This document shows positions 3,145 to 47,042 of a DNA stretch of 47,042 bases, piece by piece (position 1 is the first letter of the stretch; every line of letters starts with the position of its first letter). Under the pieces are notes generated by a model. That model did not search any database, was not told the DNA's origin, and was given only the letters and a program-made list of their open reading frames with translations. The position numbers and the translations under genes are program-made. The stretch covers positions 1-47,042 of the IMG/VR virus record IMGVR_UViG_3300046692_000583; one strand, given 5' to 3'. This DNA is from a virus.

Positions 3145-5040
3145 CGGTTTCACTACGACAATACCGCGAAGATGTGGGGTTTGATGCAACTCCCAATTAC
3201 CCTAGACAGCTGCCATTTTGGCTGCAAGCCCCCCTCTCACTTTGAAAATTGAATTTTCCATTGCTTCGTAAACATCCAAGGAACACACCGCCCGAACTCC
3301 AGTACTAAAGGTGATGGTGTCGGCGTTTAAGCGAACGCGATAACACTTATGGCCTTTTGATGAGGGCTGATTTCATGCAGCCCGATCTCATTGCCATTCG
3401 GAATGTCTTGTACCCTCTGGTTTACCGGCGGCCACGGGCAATCAGGCCCTGTAGTATCGTACTTTTCACCCGCTATCATCTCCAGCCCATCACGACCTGG
3501 ATGACATGGTGCGGTTTGCCCAAGGTGATGATTTCAGACACCGCGAACCGACGCCAGATCTTCGGAGTGATCCACTTCAGCTCAACTTGCAGCAACAACA
3601 AATCAGATGCGGATTAAAGTAACTGGAGAATTTTGATGGCGCAGCGCCATCATTCCAGCAAGCTACGGTCATTGCGCAATGAAGCTCAGGCGTGATCGAG
3701 AGATGATCGGGTGGCATTAGCCAGAGATTTCCCTTCGAGTGACGGTTTCAAAATGATACAAGGCCCGGGCGGCTAGCCGCTTTCAGGTCAGCTATCAATG
3801 AGCCACAAACGACGCAAACCCTAGATTTTTCAGCACTCACGCAATGTCAAGCATTATATATTTTCGGGTACCCCCTTGAATTCGTTTTTTTAAAACGGAG
3901 TATATAGTTATTGAATTCAAAAACAGCTTTCTCCAAACCCTCTCAATCAATACTCACCTTTTCAAGCAAAACTCAACTGACCTTTGCCCAACGCTTCTGA
4001 CATTCAACTTGCTTGCTGGCCAATTGGTAGCTTGATAAGAAAATTCATCAATGTTACCGAAAGCCTAAGGAAGCCACTTTGCTTATAGAAGTCGTTTATC
4101 CGGCCGCAGGACGGCTAGCTTGTCTTTTGAGTCCAAACCAAGCGGCTAAATTTTTTGGGATAACTACGTCCAAAATTTGAGAATCGCCATGTCGTCAAAA
4201 TAAAAGGCGAACTCACTCCCTTTAGGCGGGACAGCCAACTGGAACGTTAACCAGGAAGCCGCTGGCGATACGATGGACGGCTTTTGCCTCTCCCGGGAGA
4301 AAAAGCAGCGTTGCCACTGACCGATACACCCTTATTGCTCCCTGCACATTTCAAACGACCGCCTCTGGATCGAAGTCGTCATGCACCAGTAACATCTCAC
4401 CTGTGAAAATCTGTTAGCCAATATCCTGGTAAGACCGTGCCAGCTATAGACCGGCATATCGGCGAAATCCTCCAGACTCAGATCATTGTCGCCACCTTTG
4501 GCGCCAACAGCTCTCTTCTTCGCCGCCCCCCTGATGGAATGGACTACCGACAGGCTTGTTTTACACATAGGGAGCTCGATTTTCTCGGAGGAGCATCGCA
4601 GATTCAGAGATCAGGCAATCTGCGCAACGGTATCCCCAAGGCGCATCACTGCGATTCCCGATATTAGTCTTAATGACCGGCGATCTGCGCACCCGATGCA
4701 GTGAGATCGACGAAAACGACGCGACAAGGATTTCAAATTCACAATCCGAAGCCAGCACTCCGCCCCAGTGGATGGGAGGGGGCACGGAGACTAGGGCATG
4801 GAGTCCGCACTCATATTTCGCGATTTCAGGCGAACTGTCGTTGTCGCCTACCTCTCATTACGTCTTTTTCAGTGCTAACAGTATGCCTTTCCTATACTCT
4901 CTAACCCTGACAGCTTATGGATTGTCAATATGAAAGTTGAGTTTTTTTATTGACAGTAGATTCCTTAACATTCACTATAAATTGACATCGAGGCCGGAGA
5001 GCCCCTCGATGCAAGCTACTGACTTGAAAAGGAAATTTAG
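3145..5040. other. Long stretch without convincing genes
   Basis: About 1.9 kb contains only short, overlapping, low-quality reading frames (for example 3357-3617 plus, 4332-4568 minus, 4673-4933 plus), none with family resemblance. An AT-rich block spans about 3830-3990. Near 4923-4957 there is an inverted repeat TGTCAAT/ATTGACA, followed at 4986-5010 by a hairpin CATCGAGG...CCTCGATG, which probably belong to the control region of the short gene at 5041. The stretch looks like decayed island DNA. Confidence 0.5.
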
Positions 5041-5662: not shown

Positions 5663-5694
5663 AAAGGGGCCGCTGACCCCTTTTTTTGTTTTTT
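5663..5694 (+). terminator. Intrinsic terminator between excisionase and integrase 1
   Basis: The stem AAAGGGG (5663-5669) pairs with CCCCTTT (5677-5683) around a 7-base loop, followed by a T-rich tail to 5694. It lies between the convergent stop codons of the excisionase-like gene and integrase 1. The A-run on the left arm could let it also serve the leftward transcript. Confidence 0.8.
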
Positions 5695-6823
5695 AAGCCT
5701 GAGCCCCTCTCAGCTCCCCCATCTGCTCTACAAGCCAAGCGAGTTGCTCATTAACATTCTTGGCGTCCTGCTGCTTAATGTTCAAGGAGTTATAAGCAGC
5801 ATGAACATCAGAGGCCTTGATGTGAGTGTATCGTTTCAGTGTTTGCCAGTCCCGGTGTCCGCTCATCAAAGCTACCTGGGGAACGCTCAATCCAATTCCA
5901 AAGAAGTCCGTGATTGCCTTGTGTCGCAAGTCATGAAATCTCACTGGGCGGGCCACTCCTGCTTCCGCCCGAGCACGCGAAAAAGCAACTGACACAGACT
6001 TTGGGTTGTAGGGGAATATTGGCCCCGATGTACGATTCCCGATGAAACTTTCAACAACCTCCCAGGCCGATGGCAGCAAGGGTACCGTTTCGTCGTTACC
6101 CATTTTTTCATCCGGGTGCTTTCTGTCACGAATAATTACAGTCTTGTTTTCATAGCTCAGATCTTCAATGCGGATTCTGCATATCTCTGATTGTCGCATC
6201 GAAGTATACAACCCGAACCTGATCACCTTGGGCATATCTATTTGCTGGCGTTTCTTCGTCCCGAACACGCCGATGATTGCGTCAATCTCCGATTGTGTTG
6301 GAACGCATTCGACCTCCCGGCTTTTGATCCTCAGCTTGTGACTAGTCTTCAAGCTTTTGCGAGCCTTATCTGACATATCCGGATCAACGTCCAAGTGCTT
6401 TACGTCGTAGCAGTACCGCAGAACCGTCGATAGAAGAGAGAGATCGCCTGCAATGGTCTGGCCCTGTACGCCTTCTTTCTTCCTGGTCTCGATGAAAGCA
6501 TCCAGATGGCTTTTGGATAGACGCTCGATCCCGATTTTCCCGAAGCGATCCTTTAGGGCCTTGTAGATGAAGAGAGCACTCCGCTGAAGCGTTCGTCCGG
6601 GCTGTATGTAATCCAGATAGTCGTCTATATAATGACCAAGAGTCGAGCCCTTAGGAGCTGCCGTTCTGCCAGTGGCTTTGATCTCTTCAAGCTGACGCCC
6701 CTTCTCCTTCGCGAAAGCCTTTGCCAGCTTCTCGGATGAAAACGTAGAGCTGATCGTTTTGTGGCCTTTGGCTCGGATCAAGACACGCCAGTTGCCGCTG
6801 GGGAGCTGTTGAAAAGAAGCCAT
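5693..6823 (-). CDS. int: Tyrosine-type site-specific integrase of element 1
   Basis: About 376 residues, the usual length for phage integrases. The N-terminal part is an arm-binding/AP2-like domain (LPSGNWRVLIRAKGH), then a SAM-like core-binding domain. The catalytic domain shows Arg in TSMRQSEIC (about residue 210), Lys near the KMGNDETVPL segment, HDLRH (about 302), GHRDW (about 326) and the nucleophile Tyr in RYTHI (about 334). I chose ATG 6823; an in-frame GTG at 6835 would add four residues. It reads away from the attachment site 180 bases upstream, as usual for dusA-specific integrases. Repeats of GTGTACC at 6880-6905 upstream may be its arm sites. Confidence 0.93.
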   Translation of the reverse strand: MASFQQLPSGNWRVLIRAKGHKTISSTFSSEKLAKAFAKEKGRQLEEIKATGRTAAPKGSTLGHYIDDYLDYIQPGRTLQRSALFIYKALKDRFGKIGIERLSKSHLDAFIETRKKEGVQGQTIAGDLSLLSTVLRYCYDVKHLDVDPDMSDKARKSLKTSHKLRIKSREVECVPTQSEIDAIIGVFGTKKRQQIDMPKVIRFGLYTSMRQSEICRIRIEDLSYENKTVIIRDRKHPDEKMGNDETVPLLPSAWEVVESFIGNRTSGPIFPYNPKSVSVAFSRARAEAGVARPVRFHDLRHKAITDFFGIGLSVPQVALMSGHRDWQTLKRYTHIKASDVHAAYNSLNIKQQDAKNVNEQLAWLVEQMGELRGAQA

Positions 6824-6879
6824 GCTCGTGTTCACTCATTGTTCATTTATCAATACCCGAGGCATACCTTTTATGCACA

Positions 6880-9752: not shown

Positions 9753-10670
9753 TTAGGTATCAAGTGACTCGTCCCACTCAGAACCGAGCACCCAACTGAG
9801 TGCAGACATCCTCCCACTCAGCAGTCCCCATCCAAAATCGTCCCAACCAAGATTGTCCCTGCCGAATTTTGTTTCGATTCGCAACGCCTCTATCTTAGCT
9901 GTTGCTAAGACTTCCTCTTGTTCTGGCTTGAGCGCTTCCTGTCCGTTTGCAAGTCTGTGCAACCAATTCTGATGGCGATTCCACCAAACTTTATCCCACA
10001 GGTCGTTGTACTCGCTCAGAATTGACGCATCGTTACGACGGAGAACCAAGGCCCAGAAACCGTCGTCATCCTCGGATGGTATCCACTCTACTTTGTCGCC
10101 GTCATCGTTGTAGCCAATTTTGTGACCATTAGGTCCAGTTTCACCCGGTTTGACCGGATCAACCATTTGTGATGCATCCCTCTGGATACCTCTTACCGGG
10201 TGCAACGCAGCGAACTCTTGATTCAGCTCGCGTAGGCGAAGTACAAGATCAGGATCGAAGCGGGTGATTTCCACGCCAGCGTCTTGTAGCCGAAGCTCAC
10301 CAAGTCCCCGGATTGCCTGGTTAGGGTCCAGCGTGCCGATGACAACTCGCTTCAGCTTCCTTTCAATTACTCTGTCAGTACACGAGATTTTTGGATGATT
10401 TCTGTGAGTACACGGCTCGAGAGTCGAATAGAGCGTAGCGCCCTCTAGGTCCACACCCTTTAATTTGCGCTCGAGCAGTGTGTACTCCGCATGCTCGCCC
10501 GCTTTAAGTTCGCCTCGATACGCGGAAGCTAGAATCACACCGTCCCGGACAACGACCGCAGCAACCTTCGGTGATACCTTCCCTTCCTCGCTCATACAGT
10601 TAGAAGCAAGTTCGAGGGCAAGCTGCATTAACTCCCGATTGTCCCCGGTGTTCTGAATGTTTTCCGTCAT
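9753..10670 (-). CDS. CDA-fold deaminase fused to an unknown C-terminal domain
   Basis: A 305-residue protein. The N-terminal ~150 residues form a zinc-dependent deaminase: GEHAEYTLL (His-Ala-Glu, about residue 62) and TLEPCTHRNHPKISC (two zinc cysteines, about 87-98), closest in layout to the RibD-type deaminases. Residues about 165-305 form a second acidic, Trp-rich domain containing NDLWDKVWW and ending LSWVLGSEWDESLDT, which I have the impression recurs as a stand-alone domain but cannot name. RibD's reductase domain is absent, so riboflavin synthesis is unlikely. The substrate may be a nucleotide or modified base. It points away from the two preceding cargo genes. Confidence 0.78.
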   Translation of the reverse strand: MTENIQNTGDNRELMQLALELASNCMSEEGKVSPKVAAVVVRDGVILASAYRGELKAGEHAEYTLLERKLKGVDLEGATLYSTLEPCTHRNHPKISCTDRVIERKLKRVVIGTLDPNQAIRGLGELRLQDAGVEITRFDPDLVLRLRELNQEFAALHPVRGIQRDASQMVDPVKPGETGPNGHKIGYNDDGDKVEWIPSEDDDGFWALVLRRNDASILSEYNDLWDKVWWNRHQNWLHRLANGQEALKPEQEEVLATAKIEALRIETKFGRDNLGWDDFGWGLLSGRMSALSWVLGSEWDESLDT

Positions 10671-12123: not shown

Positions 12124-13437
12124 ATGCTCATAGAATTCAGGGTCCAAAATTTCAGGTCGTTCAACACCGAACAAACGCTAAGTTTATCAACTTCTAGTTC
12201 CACAAAAGAAAACTACAACGAAGAAAACACAATAGAACTGAATAAATTTGGCATCAATAAGCTTGTTAAAAGCGCCGCTATTTTTGGAGCTAACGCTTCC
12301 GGAAAGACTAATTTGGCGACGGCCTTGGACACGCTTAAATATATCGTTCTATTTTCATTAAAAAGCATCGATATTGATAACATTCCACACGCGCTCCCTT
12401 TTTTCATCAAGGACAACTTTTACGACATTCCTACGGAATTCGAATTAAGTTTCATAAGTGATGGAAAAATGTATCGCTATGGACTATCAATCAAGAACAA
12501 ACTGATTTCAGAAGAGTGGCTTTACCAAACAATAACCTCTAGAGAAACCATGCTTTTCCACAGAACTCAGCAGAAAATTGAGTTCAACAAACGCTCATTT
12601 TCTGAGGCGGAAAATTTCGTAAGCAAATCGGAAAATGGATATTCTATTGAGCAAACAAAAAACAACATTCCTTTTATTTCAGTAATTTCACAATTCAAAG
12701 GAAAAGTGTCATCTGAAATTACTGGCTGGTTCAAAAAACTTAATATTGCCTCTGGCATAACAGATGACGGCGTTAAAAGCTTTACCATTGACTTATTTCA
12801 ACAAGATAAAAAATTCAAAGCTTGGGCTCTCAACATTCTTAAATCTCTTCAAATAGAAGACATTCTGATCGTAGAAGAAGATGAGACACCACCCAATACT
12901 CCAAAGAACAAACAATTTGCGTTAGAAATAGCCACCAAGGTAGGTGCCTTTTTAAAGACCAATCCCTCGAAGAACAAAAAAATAAAGGTTGCAAAAGAAC
13001 TGAACGGGAAAAACTTTTTGTTCCCTATTGACCTGGAGTCGGAAGGCACAAGAAAAATAATTTATATACTGGGTCCGCTTTACGACACCATCAAGAAAAA
13101 CAAAGTTCTCTTCATTGATGAATTCGATAGCAAGTTACACTCTCTTCTTAGCGAATTCATAATCAAGCTATTCCATAAAGAGAGCAGTGAAAAAAGCCAA
13201 TTAATCATTACCTGTCATGACACAAATCTACTAAATAAAAGCATTTTCCGCAGAGATCAAATTTGGTTTATTCAGAAAAACCAAAATCACGAAAGCGAAC
13301 TTTTCTCACTAGTTGAATACAAAGAATATTACACAAGAAAGGACAACAACTACAGCAAGGATTATCTCGAAGGGAAGTATGGAGCAATACCTTTATTCTC
13401 CTCGTTGGAAAACTTTAACGAGGTGTGCAATGGTTAG
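12124..13437 (+). CDS. AAA ATPase (AAA_15/21, RloA/AbiL-like), candidate phage-defence protein
   Basis: A 437-residue protein opening with the strand-helix of SMC/OLD-like ATPases (IEFRVQNFRSFN). Walker A is GANASGKT (55-62), an ABC-signature-like SEGTRK lies at about 306-311, Walker B is VLFIDEFD (328-335), and a His switch occurs in TCHDTN (about 363). No nuclease (Toprim) domain follows, unlike OLD proteins, so an effector must be separate. The gene is markedly AT-rich compared with phage genes around it. It overlaps the next gene by 8 bases. It sits between cos and the portal gene, the same slot that carries the ctx cytotoxin in phiCTX. Defence function is inference from family and place. 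Confidence 0.85.
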   Translation: MLIEFRVQNFRSFNTEQTLSLSTSSSTKENYNEENTIELNKFGINKLVKSAAIFGANASGKTNLATALDTLKYIVLFSLKSIDIDNIPHALPFFIKDNFYDIPTEFELSFISDGKMYRYGLSIKNKLISEEWLYQTITSRETMLFHRTQQKIEFNKRSFSEAENFVSKSENGYSIEQTKNNIPFISVISQFKGKVSSEITGWFKKLNIASGITDDGVKSFTIDLFQQDKKFKAWALNILKSLQIEDILIVEEDETPPNTPKNKQFALEIATKVGAFLKTNPSKNKKIKVAKELNGKNFLFPIDLESEGTRKIIYILGPLYDTIKKNKVLFIDEFDSKLHSLLSEFIIKLFHKESSEKSQLIITCHDTNLLNKSIFRRDQIWFIQKNQNHESELFSLVEYKEYYTRKDNNYSKDYLEGKYGAIPLFSSLENFNEVCNG

Positions 13438-22479: not shown

Positions 22480-23475
22480 TTAAACGGAATTTTTCTTGAT
22501 GGCTCGCAGTTCCACCATAAGCTTCTCACCCTCGGCGGTTAGCCCCCATAGAGGGTCAACCATATCGCCAACAACATTCGAAAGACCAATAGTTACTACA
22601 CCGAGAGCCTGTAGCTGAATGGCAACGGTTTGAAAGTCTTGATCTTGCAGTTCAGACATAATAGTGGGATAGCCCAATTGAGAGCAAACCGCTTCTAGCA
22701 ATACCCCCTTAACCGAGGATTCCTTCTGATGACTCATCAAATAAGGCGATATATAATAAAAAATCTTCCCCCATGTACACTTTGCGGCCCATCCAAAAGT
22801 TCGATTCCCATCCCAATGGCTCCCATTCAATGTAAACACATCATCAAAACCTGCCAAATCTGGCACATCGTAAATTGCCTTCTTTAACACCTTGACTTGA
22901 GCCAACTCTAAACCCAACTTGTCATTTTCTTTACGAAGTTCATTTATTTCTTTAAGGAGCTCTTCGCTAGATCCCTCGCTTGCGCGTATCCAACCCACAG
23001 CTGGAAAGGCCTTCATAGTTTTAACAAGGCTCAATGAAACCAAACCTGGTAGATCGCTAGGAGATGTCCAGTACTTAACGAGCCGCCCTTTCGAAACTTT
23101 ATCTCTAAAAGCTTGAAGTTTTTCTCTTGCCTCTTCGGAAATTTCTGACTTCTCAAGAGTCAGTTTATCCGGGCTACCGTGTAGCAAGGCCACTACCTTT
23201 ATACCCTTCTCTACTGCGTAATCGAACTCCATTTCTGTATAACTTAGCCCCTCAGCACCTACAGTGCCATACCTTCCGCCGACAATCAGAAGATAATAAT
23301 CGCAATCATCAATTATTTTCTTAATGAAGGCCCATTGCTCCTCATCAGTAGCAGGAAATAGCTCCATACCTGCGGGAATGCAATCCATCTCCATTAATAT
23401 TTGAGTTACATTCTTCCTTTCATCCATTAAATCTGTATATGTCGAACTTACGAAAACCTGATAGCGCTTATCCAT
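22480..23475 (-). CDS. DUF4062 (TIR-like fold) protein, candidate immunity moron
   Basis: A 331-residue protein. The first ~95 residues are a DUF4062 domain: [43 protein letters not shown] and [13 protein letters not shown]4062 is related in fold to TIR/SEFIR domains and is frequent at the N-terminus of NLR-type and other immune proteins. A coiled coil follows (about 185-215), then a ~110-residue C-terminal region with no recognised family. I chose ATG 23475, after a G-rich ribosome binding site; the frame opens at 23502. It lies opposite to the late genes between S and V, which is the orf30 cargo locus of P2-like prophages. Confidence 0.82.
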
Positions 23476-23602
23476 TCCCCACCCCATGCTGCCATGCGTC
23501 AAAATTTAATTGATATTCGGTGACATACCATCGTTCTGCATTGATTAACTGCAGCCTAACTTTGTACACGCTCTGGCGGGCGTCCGCACAGCCAAATTAT
23601 GA

Positions 23603-37974: not shown

Positions 37975-38020
37975 CTCACAGAAGGAAACGCACAGACCAT
38001 TTAAAAAGCAGGTGACCAGA

Positions 38021-38332
38021 ATGTCTATTTTAGAAGAAACAATTAAAGCGACCAAAAATGCCAGGCTCGAAATAAAAACCACTGACTTCGCTAAAGAATA
38101 CATCAAGAAAGCGGCCCTGATTTCAGGGCTGGACATGACCTCTTTCATCATGGCATCGGCCTTCGAAAAAGCTGAAGCCGTTATGGAGAACTACCGGAAA
38201 ATTGAAGTCTCTGAGAGGGCTTTTTCCCGGTTACAAGAAATCCTCAATGAGGATGAAACTGCAACACCAACTAATGCACTACTCAACTTGATGAGGGGGA
38301 ACCATGAAAACCGAAGAGACTCCAACATGTGA
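38021..38332 (+). CDS. DUF1778 (TacA-like) antitoxin
   Basis: A 103-residue protein from ATG 38021, after AGGTGA (the frame opens at GTG 38012). The N-terminal ~60 residues are a ribbon-helix-helix of the DUF1778 type (ARLEIKTTDFAKEYIKKAALISGLDMTSFIMASA). The C-terminal half should wrap the toxin. DUF1778 proteins neutralise GNAT toxins and repress their own operon. It overlaps the toxin gene by 29 bases. The region is AT-richer than the phage genes, a sign of separate acquisition. Confidence 0.88.
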   Translation: MSILEETIKATKNARLEIKTTDFAKEYIKKAALISGLDMTSFIMASAFEKAEAVMENYRKIEVSERAFSRLQEILNEDETATPTNALLNLMRGNHENRRDSNM

Positions 38333-38858
38333 CATTGACGGCAATTTGCTTGCCAATTTCGCAAATTATAATTACCCCAAGGATTTTGATTGTGGGCTGG
38401 AGGTAATTAATTCGTATTTTAAAGGCAACCTCAAACGTGCCCTTAAAAGCGAGAACGTCAGTGGGATTGGAGCAATCTCTTCAGCTGGCGATGTCATGGG
38501 CTTCTGTACCTTGACCTTCTGTGACATTGAGAAAGCCAAGGTACGAGGCGCAATTCCTGACACGAATCTACCAGCCAACGTTGCAGTAATGCGTCTTGTG
38601 ATGCTGGGGGTTGATACAAAATTTCAAGGTCTGGGCATAGGCCAGGAACTCTTGAAGAACGCCTTCATACAGGCTGCCAAGGTACACAAACAGGTCCCGA
38701 TTAAAGGCCTGTATCTGGACGCAGCACCCAATGCGGTGACGTTTTACGAATCTCTTGGATTCAAAAAACTCTGCGAGCCTGACGAACACGGCAGTACTCA
38801 GATGATTCTGGGAATTAATGTCATCACGCAAGCCGTGGCAGCGATGTCAGTCCCGTAA
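38304..38858 (+). CDS. GNAT acetyltransferase toxin (TacT-like)
   Basis: A 184-residue protein with the acetyl-CoA binding motif QGLGIGQELL (about residue 113) preceded by MRLVMLGVDTKF, and the C-terminal YLDAAPNAVTFYESLGF including the usual Tyr. TacT-type toxins acetylate the amino group on aminoacyl-tRNA and stop translation (family knowledge). With the upstream DUF1778 gene it forms a type II toxin-antitoxin pair that may stabilise the prophage or act in defence. Confidence 0.88.
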   Translation: MKTEETPTCDIDGNLLANFANYNYPKDFDCGLEVINSYFKGNLKRALKSENVSGIGAISSAGDVMGFCTLTFCDIEKAKVRGAIPDTNLPANVAVMRLVMLGVDTKFQGLGIGQELLKNAFIQAAKVHKQVPIKGLYLDAAPNAVTFYESLGFKKLCEPDEHGSTQMILGINVITQAVAAMSVP

Positions 38859-39910: not shown

Positions 39911-40150
39911 ATGTGTTCTTTTCAGAATATTGGGTGGCTTCATGTCGAAGTTGTAGGCAAAATCCGAGAGTTGCGTAAGGGGGTACGTTTAGTGCTCTTT
40001 TGCCTTGCTACCGCCTTGTTGCTCCTATATTTGTCGGGATACTCTCCAGACGTCGCTGCACATTCAGCGATCGGGCGTGAGACCCCGGGGACAATCAAGG
40101 CGCAAAGCGCCACAGAACCTATTGCGGCGTTTTTTTTCGTCAGCGATTAG
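39911..40150 (+). CDS. Small membrane-type ORF in repeat copy 2
   Basis: A 79-codon frame from ATG 39911 without a clear ribosome binding site. It contains VVGKIRELRKGVR followed by one strong transmembrane stretch (LVLFCLATALLLLYLSGY) and a polar tail that reads through the terminator at 40104-40137. The hydrophobic middle is kept in character in both repeat copies although the bases differ, which argues for coding. It may be a short membrane or leader peptide. Function is unknown. Confidence 0.45.
   Translation: MCSFQNIGWLHVEVVGKIRELRKGVRLVLFCLATALLLLYLSGYSPDVAAHSAIGRETPGTIKAQSATEPIAAFFFVSD
39950..40077 (+). repeat. Direct repeat copy 2 (about 128 bp)
   Basis: Partner of 37308-37436; identical blocks of 30 and 38 bases at its two ends. 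It leads directly into the structured leader (40077-40231) before the DUF3077 gene; copy 1 lacks that leader and diverges after CGGGCG. Confidence 0.88.
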
Positions 40151-40231
40151 GTTTTATGGCGGCTGTGCGTGGGAGGCTTTCGGGCCTACCGGTTACCTTG
40201 ATTGCCGGGTCTCACACCACGCACGGCTGCC
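40077..40231 (+). ncRNA. Structured leader with two interleaved long stems
   Basis: Segment 40077-40100 (GTGAGACCC...CAATCAAGG) pairs with 40196-40215 (CCTTGATTG..GGGTCTCAC). Segment 40158-40172 (GGCGGCTGTGCGTGG) pairs with 40217-40231 (CCACGCACGGCTGCC) with two G-U pairs. The order A5', B5', A3', B3' means the stems either form a pseudoknot or exclude each other. An intrinsic terminator (40104-40137) lies inside. The DUF3077 gene starts 156 bases further on. It looks like a cis-acting RNA or attenuator; I know no named family for it. Confidence 0.5.
40104..40137 (+). terminator. Terminator inside the leader upstream of the DUF3077 gene
   Basis: AAAGCGCC (40104-40111) pairs with GGCGTTTT (40126-40133) including one G-U, with eight T in a row from 40130. 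Upstream bases 40099-40111 can instead form GGCGC-AAA-GCGCC, a competing hairpin. The arrangement fits an attenuator. Confidence 0.65.
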
Positions 40232-40386
40232 ACCCACGCTTTTGAGACAGCAAAGTGGCAGTTCCTCAAATCAAGGGAACTGATAATGAACAAACTAAAT
40301 CCGTCCGAAATACGTCCTCTCACCCACCTGCCTTCTGTGCGGTGCTGTTCGTCACCTATTCACCTTTGCATCTATGGAGGTGATCA

Positions 40387-40680
40387 ATGACCGAACCAAC
40401 AGAAGCAAAAACCATCGGCCTCACCCCCTTCATCTATTGCGCAGACAAACCGTTGTTCCGCGTCAGCGGGGGCGTTCCTGTCGAAGCAGCTTTGGCGATG
40501 GCATCCGATCTGCTGTTCCTGGCTAAAGCGCTTTCAAAAGACGCGGCTTATGACAGAGAAACCGACCGTTTTTCATGGGCTGCGCACTATTTGACGTCGA
40601 TGGGAAAGGCGGTGATTGACGATGTGGTCAAATCTGTAACACCGCCCCCCGTTAGACCGAGTATGAAAGTCGCCAAATAG
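40387..40680 (+). CDS. DUF3077-type small protein
   Basis: A 97-residue protein with a near-perfect ribosome binding site (GGAGGTGA). The pattern PLFRVSGGVPVEAALAMASDLLFLAKAL followed by a helical FSWAAHYLTSMGKAVIDDV is that of the DUF3077 group, common in several copies in Pseudomonas genomes and of unknown function. It ends with its own terminator. Its long structured leader suggests post-transcriptional control. Confidence 0.8.
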   Translation: MTEPTEAKTIGLTPFIYCADKPLFRVSGGVPVEAALAMASDLLFLAKALSKDAAYDRETDRFSWAAHYLTSMGKAVIDDVVKSVTPPPVRPSMKVAK

Positions 40681-41036: not shown

Positions 41037-41426
41037 TTAAATATCGACGAGTTGTTTCTTGGCGCTTGTAAGACTGGTGACTTCGGACATCGCACCAACA
41101 ATGCGATGCACAGCTTTTTGGTCATAATCAGACAGCGTTCTGAATTGCTGGATCAGCCGTTCTTCGGCCTCGTCCAGTCCTTCAACAGCGCGCAGCAAAC
41201 GCCCGCCCGTCAAGACGTACAGGACGTCTACACCGGCCTTGGCCACGGCTGAGAGGTAGACAGAGTCAGCGTTTCGCTCGCCCTTTTCGTAGCTGCCCTG
41301 GGTATTGCGGGTGATGCCTCCCAGTTGCGCAAAGGCTTCTTGATTAAGCCCCAGCCGCGTCCTTTCTTCACGCAAGCGCTCGCCCACGGCAACGTCCAAG
41401 TCTTCATTAGATGCACAACTTTTCAA
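41037..41426 (-). CDS. XRE-family phage repressor
   Basis: A 129-residue protein starting at TTG 41424-41426, preceded by a strong ribosome binding site (AAGGGTGG); no internal Met precedes the domain. Residues 12-68 are a classic HTH: VGERLREERTRLGLNQEAF, then ITRNTQGSYEKGERNADSVYLSAV. The C-terminal helical tail probably mediates dimer contacts; there is no LexA-type self-cleavage domain, so induction must work otherwise (for example by an antirepressor). It is divergent from the Cro/Ner-like gene with a 67-base gap. Confidence 0.88.
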   Translation of the reverse strand: MKSCASNEDLDVAVGERLREERTRLGLNQEAFAQLGGITRNTQGSYEKGERNADSVYLSAVAKAGVDVLYVLTGGRLLRAVEGLDEAEERLIQQFRTLSDYDQKAVHRIVGAMSEVTSLTSAKKQLVDI

Positions 41427-45414: not shown

Positions 45415-46539
45415 CTATTTCAACACTCTGGCGCCAAGTGCCACCGGCGCCAGCAAGATTTTATCCTTCCATTCCCACTTCACATAGGGATCACCTCGGC
45501 CACGCAAATGGGTGTAGCGGCGCATTGAGTTCCAGTCTCGATGCCCTGAAACACTTGCCACCCGAGGGATGTCCCAGTCCATTTCGAACAGTCGGCTTAC
45601 GCCTTCGTGCCGCAGGTCATGAAAGTTCAGGTCTTCTATTTCAAGAAACTGGCAGGCCCTTGTCCAGGATGCAGAGATTGACCCGGCATCATAAGGAAAG
45701 ATCTCGAGTCGCTCTTTGGGCATAGTTTGAAGAATGGCCCAGGCTTCTGGCGGCAAATGGCACCAGACGTCATTGCCAATCTTCTGCCCGGGGTTTTTCA
45801 TATCACGAACCAGTACCCGATAGCCGACCTCATCCAGATCGGCCCATAGAATCCGTGTGATTTCCTCTTGGCGACGAGTGGAAAACAACGCGAACCCGGC
45901 GACTTTAAGCATATTGATAGCTGTCGGACGTCGTGTCTGGATACCCTGAAAGTGCGTCAGCAGCCGATCCAGTTCATCCAACGTAGGACGACGGTCGCGT
46001 TCGCGACTGCGCATGTTGTAGCCAAGTTTCTTCAGTACCTTTCGGGCATCACCCATCGCCTGCGAATCAACTTCATATCCCCAGGCAGGGCGAGCCACTG
46101 AAAGCACCGCGCCCAAGTGGGATAGATCGTTACCGGCCGTCTGCGGTTTGACGTCTCCGCCCTCATCACTCATCCGCCACAGCGCATACTCCACCAACTT
46201 CTGACTGTTGATGTCTTTGTCGTGCAGCTCGCCAAGATAGGACTCGCCGATGGCATTGAGCGTGGCGAGCTTGGTTTTGCCCAGCGGCCGCACTTTCTTC
46301 ATTTCGTCTAAGTAGCGCTCGATCATCTCCTTGACCGTCGCACCCGTGCGGCTTGCTCGCTCGATAGCGCCTGGTTGGTCCAGCTCGGTCTCGCGATTTC
46401 GAACCCAGGCCTTGGCGGCCTCTTTTCGGGCGAAGGTCTGGCTCTCTTGGTAAACTTGGGCACCGTTGCGAACCAGGCGTATTTGCGCCGTGTAGCTGAC
46501 GCTCCCGTCGGTGCGTTTCCTTGCTCTGATCGTGGCCAT
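45415..46539 (-). CDS. int: Tyrosine-type site-specific integrase of element 2
   Basis: A 374-residue protein from ATG 46539 (MATIRARKRTDGSVSYTAQIRL); the frame opens at 46662 but the extra residues cross the arm repeats and are not family-like. The N-terminal arm-binding domain is followed by a SAM-like domain. The catalytic part has Arg in STRRQEEI (about 217), the KIGNDVW segment, HDLRHE (about 312), GHRDW (about 335) and Tyr in RYTHL (about 344). The gene starts 170 bases from the core site in dusA and reads away from it, as integrase 1 does. Confidence 0.95.
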   Translation of the reverse strand: MATIRARKRTDGSVSYTAQIRLVRNGAQVYQESQTFARKEAAKAWVRNRETELDQPGAIERASRTGATVKEMIERYLDEMKKVRPLGKTKLATLNAIGESYLGELHDKDINSQKLVEYALWRMSDEGGDVKPQTAGNDLSHLGAVLSVARPAWGYEVDSQAMGDARKVLKKLGYNMRSRERDRRPTLDELDRLLTHFQGIQTRRPTAINMLKVAGFALFSTRRQEEITRILWADLDEVGYRVLVRDMKNPGQKIGNDVWCHLPPEAWAILQTMPKERLEIFPYDAGSISASWTRACQFLEIEDLNFHDLRHEGVSRLFEMDWDIPRVASVSGHRDWNSMRRYTHLRGRGDPYVKWEWKDKILLAPVALGARVLK

Positions 46540-46546
46540 GGTCACC

Positions 46547-46597
46547 TGGTACAATTGCAAAATGGACTGGTACATTGTACCAACCACTGGTACAAAA
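46547..46597. promoter_or_regulatory. Four TGGTACA arm-type repeats between integrase 2 and dusA
   Basis: TGGTACA occurs at 46547, 46568, 46576 (inverted, forming TGGTACA-T-TGTACCA) and 46588. GTACCA copies at 7078 and 7089 mark the other end of the element. They are probably arm sites for integrase 2 or sites for PrtN acting as excisionase. The int and dusA promoters would overlap them. Confidence 0.7.
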
Positions 46598-46640
46598 CGC
46601 CGATTTACCCCCGAAAACAGCCTCAAAAACGTAGAGCAAA

Positions 46641-47042
46641 ATGATACAGAATCTTGCTGCAACCCCCGTAAATACTAGCTCTGCGCTGTCTAGGCGGTTT
46701 AGCGTTGCGCCCATGATGGATTGGACCGATCGCCACTGCCGTTTCTTCCTGCGCCTGCTCTCCAAACACGCCCTCCTCTACACCGAAATGGTCACCACCG
46801 GCGCGCTCCTAAACGGCGATCACGACCGCTTCCTGCGTCACAACGAAGCCGAACACCCGCTTGCCCTGCAACTCGGCGGCAGTGTCCCGCTGGACCTGGC
46901 GATGTGCGCGCGCATGGCGCAGGAGCACGGTTACGACGAGGTGAATTTGAATGTCGGCTGCCCGAGTGATCGGGTGCAGAACAATATGATTGGTGCGTGC
47001 CTGATGGGGCATCCGCAGTTGGTGGCCGATTGTGTGAAGGCG
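46641..47042 (+). CDS. dusA: tRNA-dihydrouridine synthase A (partial, with element-derived N-terminus)
   Basis: The frame from ATG 46641 reads [20 protein letters not shown], then [18 protein letters not shown], and continues to the window edge (134 codons seen). PMMDWTD and [11 protein letters not shown] are DusA signatures; [12 protein letters not shown] is the FMN-site motif of the family. DusA reduces uridines at positions 20/20a of the tRNA D-loop. The first ~20 residues and the promoter come from element 2, since they lie left of the attachment core. Function should be preserved. Confidence 0.92.
46705..46726 (+). repeat. Attachment site at the right end of element 2 (within dusA)
   Basis: The core ATGATGGATTGGAC (46713-46726) encodes MMDW(T) of DusA and repeats 7008-7021. 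Integration here keeps the dusA frame intact and adds an element-derived N-terminus. Confidence 0.9.

Follow-up and report, generated by a model that had tools for sequence, protein, structure and literature searches.

Genomic setting

The window analysed is the whole of IMG/VR virus record IMGVR_UViG_3300046692_000583, a 47-kb contig of 47,042 nucleotides. Its head and tail genes stand in a P2-like order, a phage primase and an Ogr/Delta-like regulator are also encoded, and the element is read as a P2-like Pseudomonas prophage. Two phage integrase genes are present (5693-6835 and 45415-46662, both on the minus strand), perhaps reflecting two elements, or flanking host DNA plus a second element. 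Several accessory genes are scattered along the record. A 305-aa protein with a cytidine/deoxycytidylate-type deaminase domain is encoded at 9753-10670 on the minus strand, and an AAA_21 ATPase at 12124-13434 is matched in PADLOC by the defence model for AbiLi (E 8e-85), the end of its gene being overlapped by a 188-aa ORF without a Pfam match. A DUF4062 protein (22480-23499, minus strand) runs antiparallel to the surrounding tail gene block. Directly upstream of the immunity region, a TacA-like antitoxin and a GNAT acetyltransferase (38012-38858) form a probable type II toxin-antitoxin pair.

Leader architecture

The region of interest is a structured leader followed by two overlapping reading frames. 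Its features, from 5' to 3', are as follows.

40016-40021 and 40038-40043, plus strand: putative promoter-like site, TTGTTG and GATACT separated by 16 nt, read from the sequence
40039-40091, plus strand: c4-a1b1 target motif (Rfam RF03163, 46.3 bits, gathering cut-off 46.7), with hairpin I at 40052-40070 and hairpin II at 40072-40087
40077-40085, plus strand: target a1 in the loop of hairpin II, partner a' at 40207-40215 (9 bp), from sequence and covariation
40092-40100, plus strand: target b1, partner b' at 40196-40204 (9 bp), sharing 2 nt with the antiterminator left arm, from sequence
40099-40111, plus strand: competing hairpin GGCGC-AAA-GCGCC, candidate antiterminator, from sequence and folding
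40104-40137, plus strand: intrinsic terminator, arms 40104-40111/40126-40133 and eight T at 40130-40137, from folding; contained in the isrK model
40152-40237, plus strand: C4 antisense RNA (Rfam RF01695, fold, and covariation), P1 40157-40172/40217-40232, P2 40174-40187, P3 40189-40208
40196-40204, plus strand: antisense loop b', the loop of P3, from word matching and folding
40207-40215, plus strand: antisense segment a', from word matching and covariation
40227-40261, plus strand: alternative helix 40227-40233/40255-40261, which takes the C4 3' arm and has a2 in its loop, from covariation
40243-40248, plus strand: target a2, from covariation
40260-40281, plus strand: hairpin 40260-40265/40276-40281 holding b2 (40269-40276) and a Shine-Dalgarno sequence at about 40274-40278, from folding
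40286-40390, plus strand: leader ORF of 34 aa, its stop overlapping the DUF3077 start (ATGA); icd-like by position
40387-40680, plus strand: DUF3077 protein, 97 aa, predicted helical hairpin (PF11275, E 5e-31)

Folding of the 327-nt leader gives -121.4 kcal/mol, compared with -101.6 +/- 5.3 for dinucleotide shuffles (z -3.7). A consensus promoter scan called no promoter at the leader; the GATACT-like block is conserved among relatives (alignment A2). The sequence-only reading had taken DUF3077 for the sole downstream gene. The DUF3077 gene is indeed there, but the leader ORF that precedes it had been overlooked.

Identity of the C4 element

C4 is an RNA of about 77 nt that is freed by RNase P, and it is a textbook phage immunity RNA of which few systems are known. 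The Rfam search suggested in the sequence-only reading returned C4 as the single family above threshold across the whole record, at 68 bits against a cut-off of 45. The match is full length (model positions 1-87) and adopts the three-stem fold, with a fold energy of -45.6 kcal/mol. P1 carries a GG at its 5' end (40158), which would be compatible with release by RNase P. The a2 and b2 sites, complementary to a' and b', lie beside a Shine-Dalgarno sequence in the same operon, as is expected of a C4 member. They constitute a second target downstream of C4, over the Shine-Dalgarno of the leader ORF.

Two related families score just below or below their thresholds at this locus. The c4-a1b1 match scores 46.3 bits against a cut-off of 46.7, which the relatives L108, L116, L117, and L123 exceed. 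The isrK match (RF01394, 40052-40137) reaches 38.1 bits, below the cut-off of 50, and L108, L116, and L117 pass that cut-off. C4 and c4-a1b1 have been catalogued in Proteobacteria and phages (Weinberg et al. 2010, PMC2864571). The earlier proposal of an undescribed riboregulator stands as regards the riboregulator, for which the covariation reported below is very strong, and is not supported as regards its novelty, the Rfam match being well above the cut-off. The leader is a known RNA family, C4, in a variant setting characterized by attenuator geometry, new cargo, and orthogonal multi-copy modules.

Pairing of C4 with two target sites

A set of 199 distinct elements was assembled from DUF3077 loci, C4 searches of Pseudomonas genomes, and a few phages. 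Within each element the antisense words were matched to their own targets and to shuffled partners. The mean match was 7.28 nt against 5.38 for a'-a1, 7.00 against 4.90 for a'-a2, 6.74 against 5.49 for b'-b1, and 7.49 against 5.07 for b'-b2 (n=199), and for all four pairings the observed mean was reached by 0 of 2000 shuffles. The a-word comes in about 30 variants; in almost all elements it is shared by a1 and a2, and a' is its complement. The b2 match is found in 150 of 191 elements.

A column test on 62 diverse elements gave 97.6% pairing for both a1:a' and a':a2, with 102 and 103 double changes, respectively, against about 25 in shuffles; in slid controls, pairing dropped to 26-63%. At the central a1:a' pair, CG is present in 29 of these elements, AU in 13, UA in 13, and GC in 5. 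The closing stem of C4 covaries as well, and the alternative helix downstream of it is 86% paired, with 23 double changes against 7.6 when shuffled. These shuffle controls ignore the shared descent of the elements; shared ancestry is nevertheless unlikely to explain the covariation, because alignment A2 contains many distinct words. The two-part target TGAGAC..ATCAAGG has just two plus-strand occurrences in the 47-kb record, at 40078 and 40243. Sites complementary to C4 are therefore located both upstream and downstream of it, the layout of the P4 CI type.

These results give a new meaning to the two stems recognized in the sequence-only reading. Both are present, and they interleave: stem A comprises 40077-40085/40207-40215 and 40092-40100/40196-40204, each of 9 bp, and stem B comprises 40158-40172/40217-40231, of 15 bp. 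Stem B closes the C4 antisense RNA. Stem A is better read as the pairing of the C4 loops a' and b' with the upstream target a1/b1, and not as a structural stem, because a' pairs just as well with another site beyond C4, something that a fixed pseudoknot would not lead one to expect. The interleaving had led to the proposal of a cis pseudoknot or a REP-like repeat, and a riboswitch or repeat of this kind without antisense function could account for the two crossing stems. It would not account for the equal covariation of a' with the downstream site, for the match to the C4 family, or for the fixed position ahead of small genes, and is considered highly improbable. Copies are numerous, yet they stand before particular small genes, carry matched targets, and score as C4. 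The similar spacing to the start codon in most elements and the particular families found downstream also argue against REP-like spread.

Terminator and candidate antiterminator

The sequence-only reading had placed a terminator with eight T inside stem A, together with a competing hairpin overlapping its left arm, and both were recovered at 40104-40111/40126-40133 (T run 40130-40137) and 40099-40111. Across the 199 elements, a terminator precedes C4 in 97, compared with 10% of shuffles, and a terminator with an overlapping upstream hairpin is found in 73, compared with 1.7%. Target b1 was mapped in 55 of these 73, where its overlap with the left arm of the hairpin is 2 nt long in 36 elements and 3 nt long in 9.

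The consequence of C4 binding was modelled by blocking a1/b1. At predicted equilibrium, the mean probability of the hairpin fell from 0.43 to 0.05 and that of the terminator rose from 0.49 to 0.84; for the leader of the 47-kb record, the corresponding changes were from 0.22 to 0.00 and from 0.74 to 0.95. The Vienna energies used here ignore kissing interactions and polymerase kinetics. The competing hairpin thus acts in these models as an antiterminator would, and because 2-3 nt of its left arm belong to b1, binding of C4 should free the terminator. Since the terminator is favoured in this leader at equilibrium even without C4 (0.74), the switch would depend on co-transcriptional order. Attenuation is not universal, as a recognisable terminator is present in only about half of the elements.

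Occurrence, downstream genes, and orthogonality

Similar leaders had been suspected before such genes in Pseudomonas, and C4 does lie within 500 nt upstream at 83 of 101 DUF3077 loci. At about ten others, a1b1 is kept and C4 has been lost. In these loci (L058, L071, L072, L074, L075, L082, L084, L087, L088, L089, and L098) the a1b1 hairpins run straight into the leader ORF, and a C4 from elsewhere may control them in trans. In three genomes with C4-less copies, a search for an L092-type C4 pattern gave a single match with two mismatches (G004), which is unconvincing.

C4 was found in at least 110 of 119 Pseudomonas genomes sampled across the genus, with a median of at least 13 matches and at least 73 genomes carrying ten or more; these are lower bounds, up to 33 candidates per genome having been scored. 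Deeper searches of six genomes, chosen for carrying DUF3077, yielded 18 to 52 C4 elements. In a Gammaproteobacteria sample, C4 was found in at least 18 of 274 genomes, mostly one each (15 candidates scored), so the contrast with Pseudomonas can be taken as indicative. Several of the copies in P. protegens FD6 adjoin ordinary chromosomal genes, as judged by eye. One 1.5-Mb gammaproteobacterial genome (G383, contig C9, 1700-3092) has four successive C4 matches in 1.4 kb. The phage records phiAH14b and vB_Pae_U10 carry C4 at 3957-4043 (L115) and 2273-2360 (L117), respectively, and contain integrase, AlpA/excisionase-like, and primase genes in a P4-satellite-like layout.

Of the 115 elements found via C4 rather than via DUF3077, 103 have a downstream ORF. 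DUF6124 is matched by 50 of these, DUF3077 by 24, and Bro-N, the domain of phage antirepressors, by 9; in some proteins the matches to the two DUFs overlap. The first start codon with a Shine-Dalgarno sequence lies about 130-145 nt after the C4 start in most elements. Antirepressor-like Bro-N genes of 172-175 aa follow C4 with DUF3077-like spacing in Pseudomonas (L103, L107, L141, L143-L145, L148, and L151), and phage PAShipCat1 has the same layout ahead of an annotated Ant, with the start codon 138 nt after the C4 start (134 here). Within one genome, both words match the element's own downstream target in 72-75% of cases and that of another copy in 1-2%.

The DUF3077 protein itself is modelled with confidence by AlphaFold2 as a two-helix hairpin (mean pLDDT 87.5). 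A Foldseek comparison of the model with the PDB and viral models gave nothing significant, and a fold search returned only helical-hairpin look-alikes, with Z up to 6.8, within the background for helical models. No solved structure related by sequence was found, and the protein had no match in the phage collection. The neighbouring repressor gene (41037-41426) and the presence of Bro-N in the same slot elsewhere prompt the guess that DUF3077 is a small antirepressor. The proteins downstream of C4 matched no NCBIfam family, no toxin, and no credible defence family. The last two results bear on an addiction module, in which DUF3077 and DUF6124 would be toxic small proteins and C4 a type I antitoxin. 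An antisense RNA accompanying a small gene, in many mutually orthogonal copies, would fit such a module; the predicted product, however, is a soluble helical hairpin and not a hydrophobic toxin-like peptide, and some loci keep the gene without C4. This reading is accordingly rated improbable.

Proposed mechanism

The family assignment, both target sites, their covariation, and the overlap geometry can be read from the DNA itself. The transcription, processing, and direction of regulation set out here are what they suggest: the locus is probably a C4-type antisense immunity module that silences the leader ORF and DUF3077 through early termination plus a translation block. A single transcript starting at about 40050 would contain a1b1, the terminator, C4, a2b2, the leader ORF, and DUF3077. 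C4 would be excised from it, by analogy with P1/P7 probably through RNase P cleavage at the GG with which P1 opens, and the free RNA would then have two points of action in trans on newly made transcripts. At the first, a' and b' would pair with a1 and b1, opening the antiterminator hairpin and freeing its right arm, so that the terminator forms and transcription stops early. At the second, pairing with a2 and b2 on read-through transcripts would cover the Shine-Dalgarno and block the leader ORF, and DUF3077 would be blocked by coupling.

Two other readings assign a different role to the upstream target. In one, C4 would act only on translation, at a2/b2 as in P1, while the upstream target would serve for titration or autoregulation and the terminator would be an ordinary one. 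The equal covariation of a1/b1 and a2/b2 and the lack of a terminator in about half of the elements fit this, but it leaves unexplained the constant 2-3 nt overlap of b1 with the antiterminator arm and the occurrence of terminator plus hairpin about 20-fold above chance; it is regarded as unlikely. In the other, a short terminated RNA (about 40050-40137, with a1/b1) would act in trans as a C4 sponge or as an opener of downstream structure, so that termination feeds activation. Gifsy-1 IsrK is a terminated a1b1 RNA that activates its own read-through mRNA (PMC4825925), and relatives L108, L116, and L117 pass the isrK cut-off. The match at this leader is below that cut-off (38.1 against 50), and the geometry of b1 at the antiterminator fits C4-driven termination. 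Such an IsrK-like activator is possible, if on the doubtful side, and is compatible with C4-driven termination rather than exclusive of it.

Considering the genus as a whole, a tentative picture, held with less than even confidence, is that the phage C4 module has turned, in Pseudomonas, into a genus-wide family of mutually orthogonal antisense switches. A genome would often contain more than ten of them, every one with its own matched target pair, and they would use attenuation and a translation block to hold the DUF3077/DUF6124 superfamily silent until a trigger, perhaps phage entry. The interchangeable address words of 7 nt number about 30 and the b-word combinations more than 100, and within a genome they are nearly orthogonal, which makes the C4 modules a naturally occurring collection of orthogonal RNA switches. 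The link to C4 is a handle on the function of two large Pseudomonas families, and the leader offers a testable attenuation mechanism for C4. As far as checked, three points are new: the link of C4 to DUF3077/DUF6124, the overlap of b1 with the antiterminator, and the presence of two matching targets per module throughout a large orthogonal set. In the open-access literature, nothing was found on DUF6124, DUF3077 is mentioned once in passing, and no report links C4 to either.

Comparison with known systems

In plasmids pT181 and pIP501, an antisense RNA prevents an antiterminator from forming, so that the terminator forms. The likeness to the present leader is one of mechanism, antisense-driven attenuation; unlike in those plasmids, C4 lies on the same strand as its target transcript and is cut from it.

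Satellite phage P4 immunity is likened by description. Its antisense RNA is also cut from the leader and has complementary sites on both sides: the pairing partners of CI RNA are seqA, which lies upstream, and seqC, which lies downstream, and termination has been proposed (PMC4825925). Antisense-dependent premature termination of the P4 CI type is what the models predict for this leader. In P4, however, replication genes are controlled, whereas DUF3077 and an intrinsic terminator are found here.

The Gifsy-1 region with isrK, orf45, anrP, and STnc1160 has the same order of a1b1 RNA, terminator, C4-like RNA, leader ORF, and coupled gene. It differs in that the isrK score here is below the cut-off, and the downstream protein is set apart by name. 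Its authors raised modulation of the IsrK terminator by STnc1160, but their own co-expression test gave no support, the C4-like STnc1160 failing to relieve IsrK growth arrest (PMC4825925). This result counts against the C4-driven silencing model.

Many C4 RNAs per genome have also been described for Acinetobacter baumannii, where the Group 1 C4 sRNAs are multi-copy, processed, and highly expressed and have variable a' loops in one genome; unlike in Pseudomonas, the sections of that report consulted describe no matched self-targets or linked small-gene family (PMC5320573).

A further close parallel is c4-icd-ant (immI) of P1/P7, with C4 processed by RNase P and occluding the ribosome binding site (PMC5320573). 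Shared features are the C4 fold with its a' and b' loops, a target over the Shine-Dalgarno, an antisense RNA that forms part of the transcript under its control, and a short leader ORF overlapping the next gene, the likeness to icd being one of position. Here, in contrast, DUF3077 stands in place of ant, and the upstream target is equipped with a terminator and an overlapping antiterminator-like hairpin.
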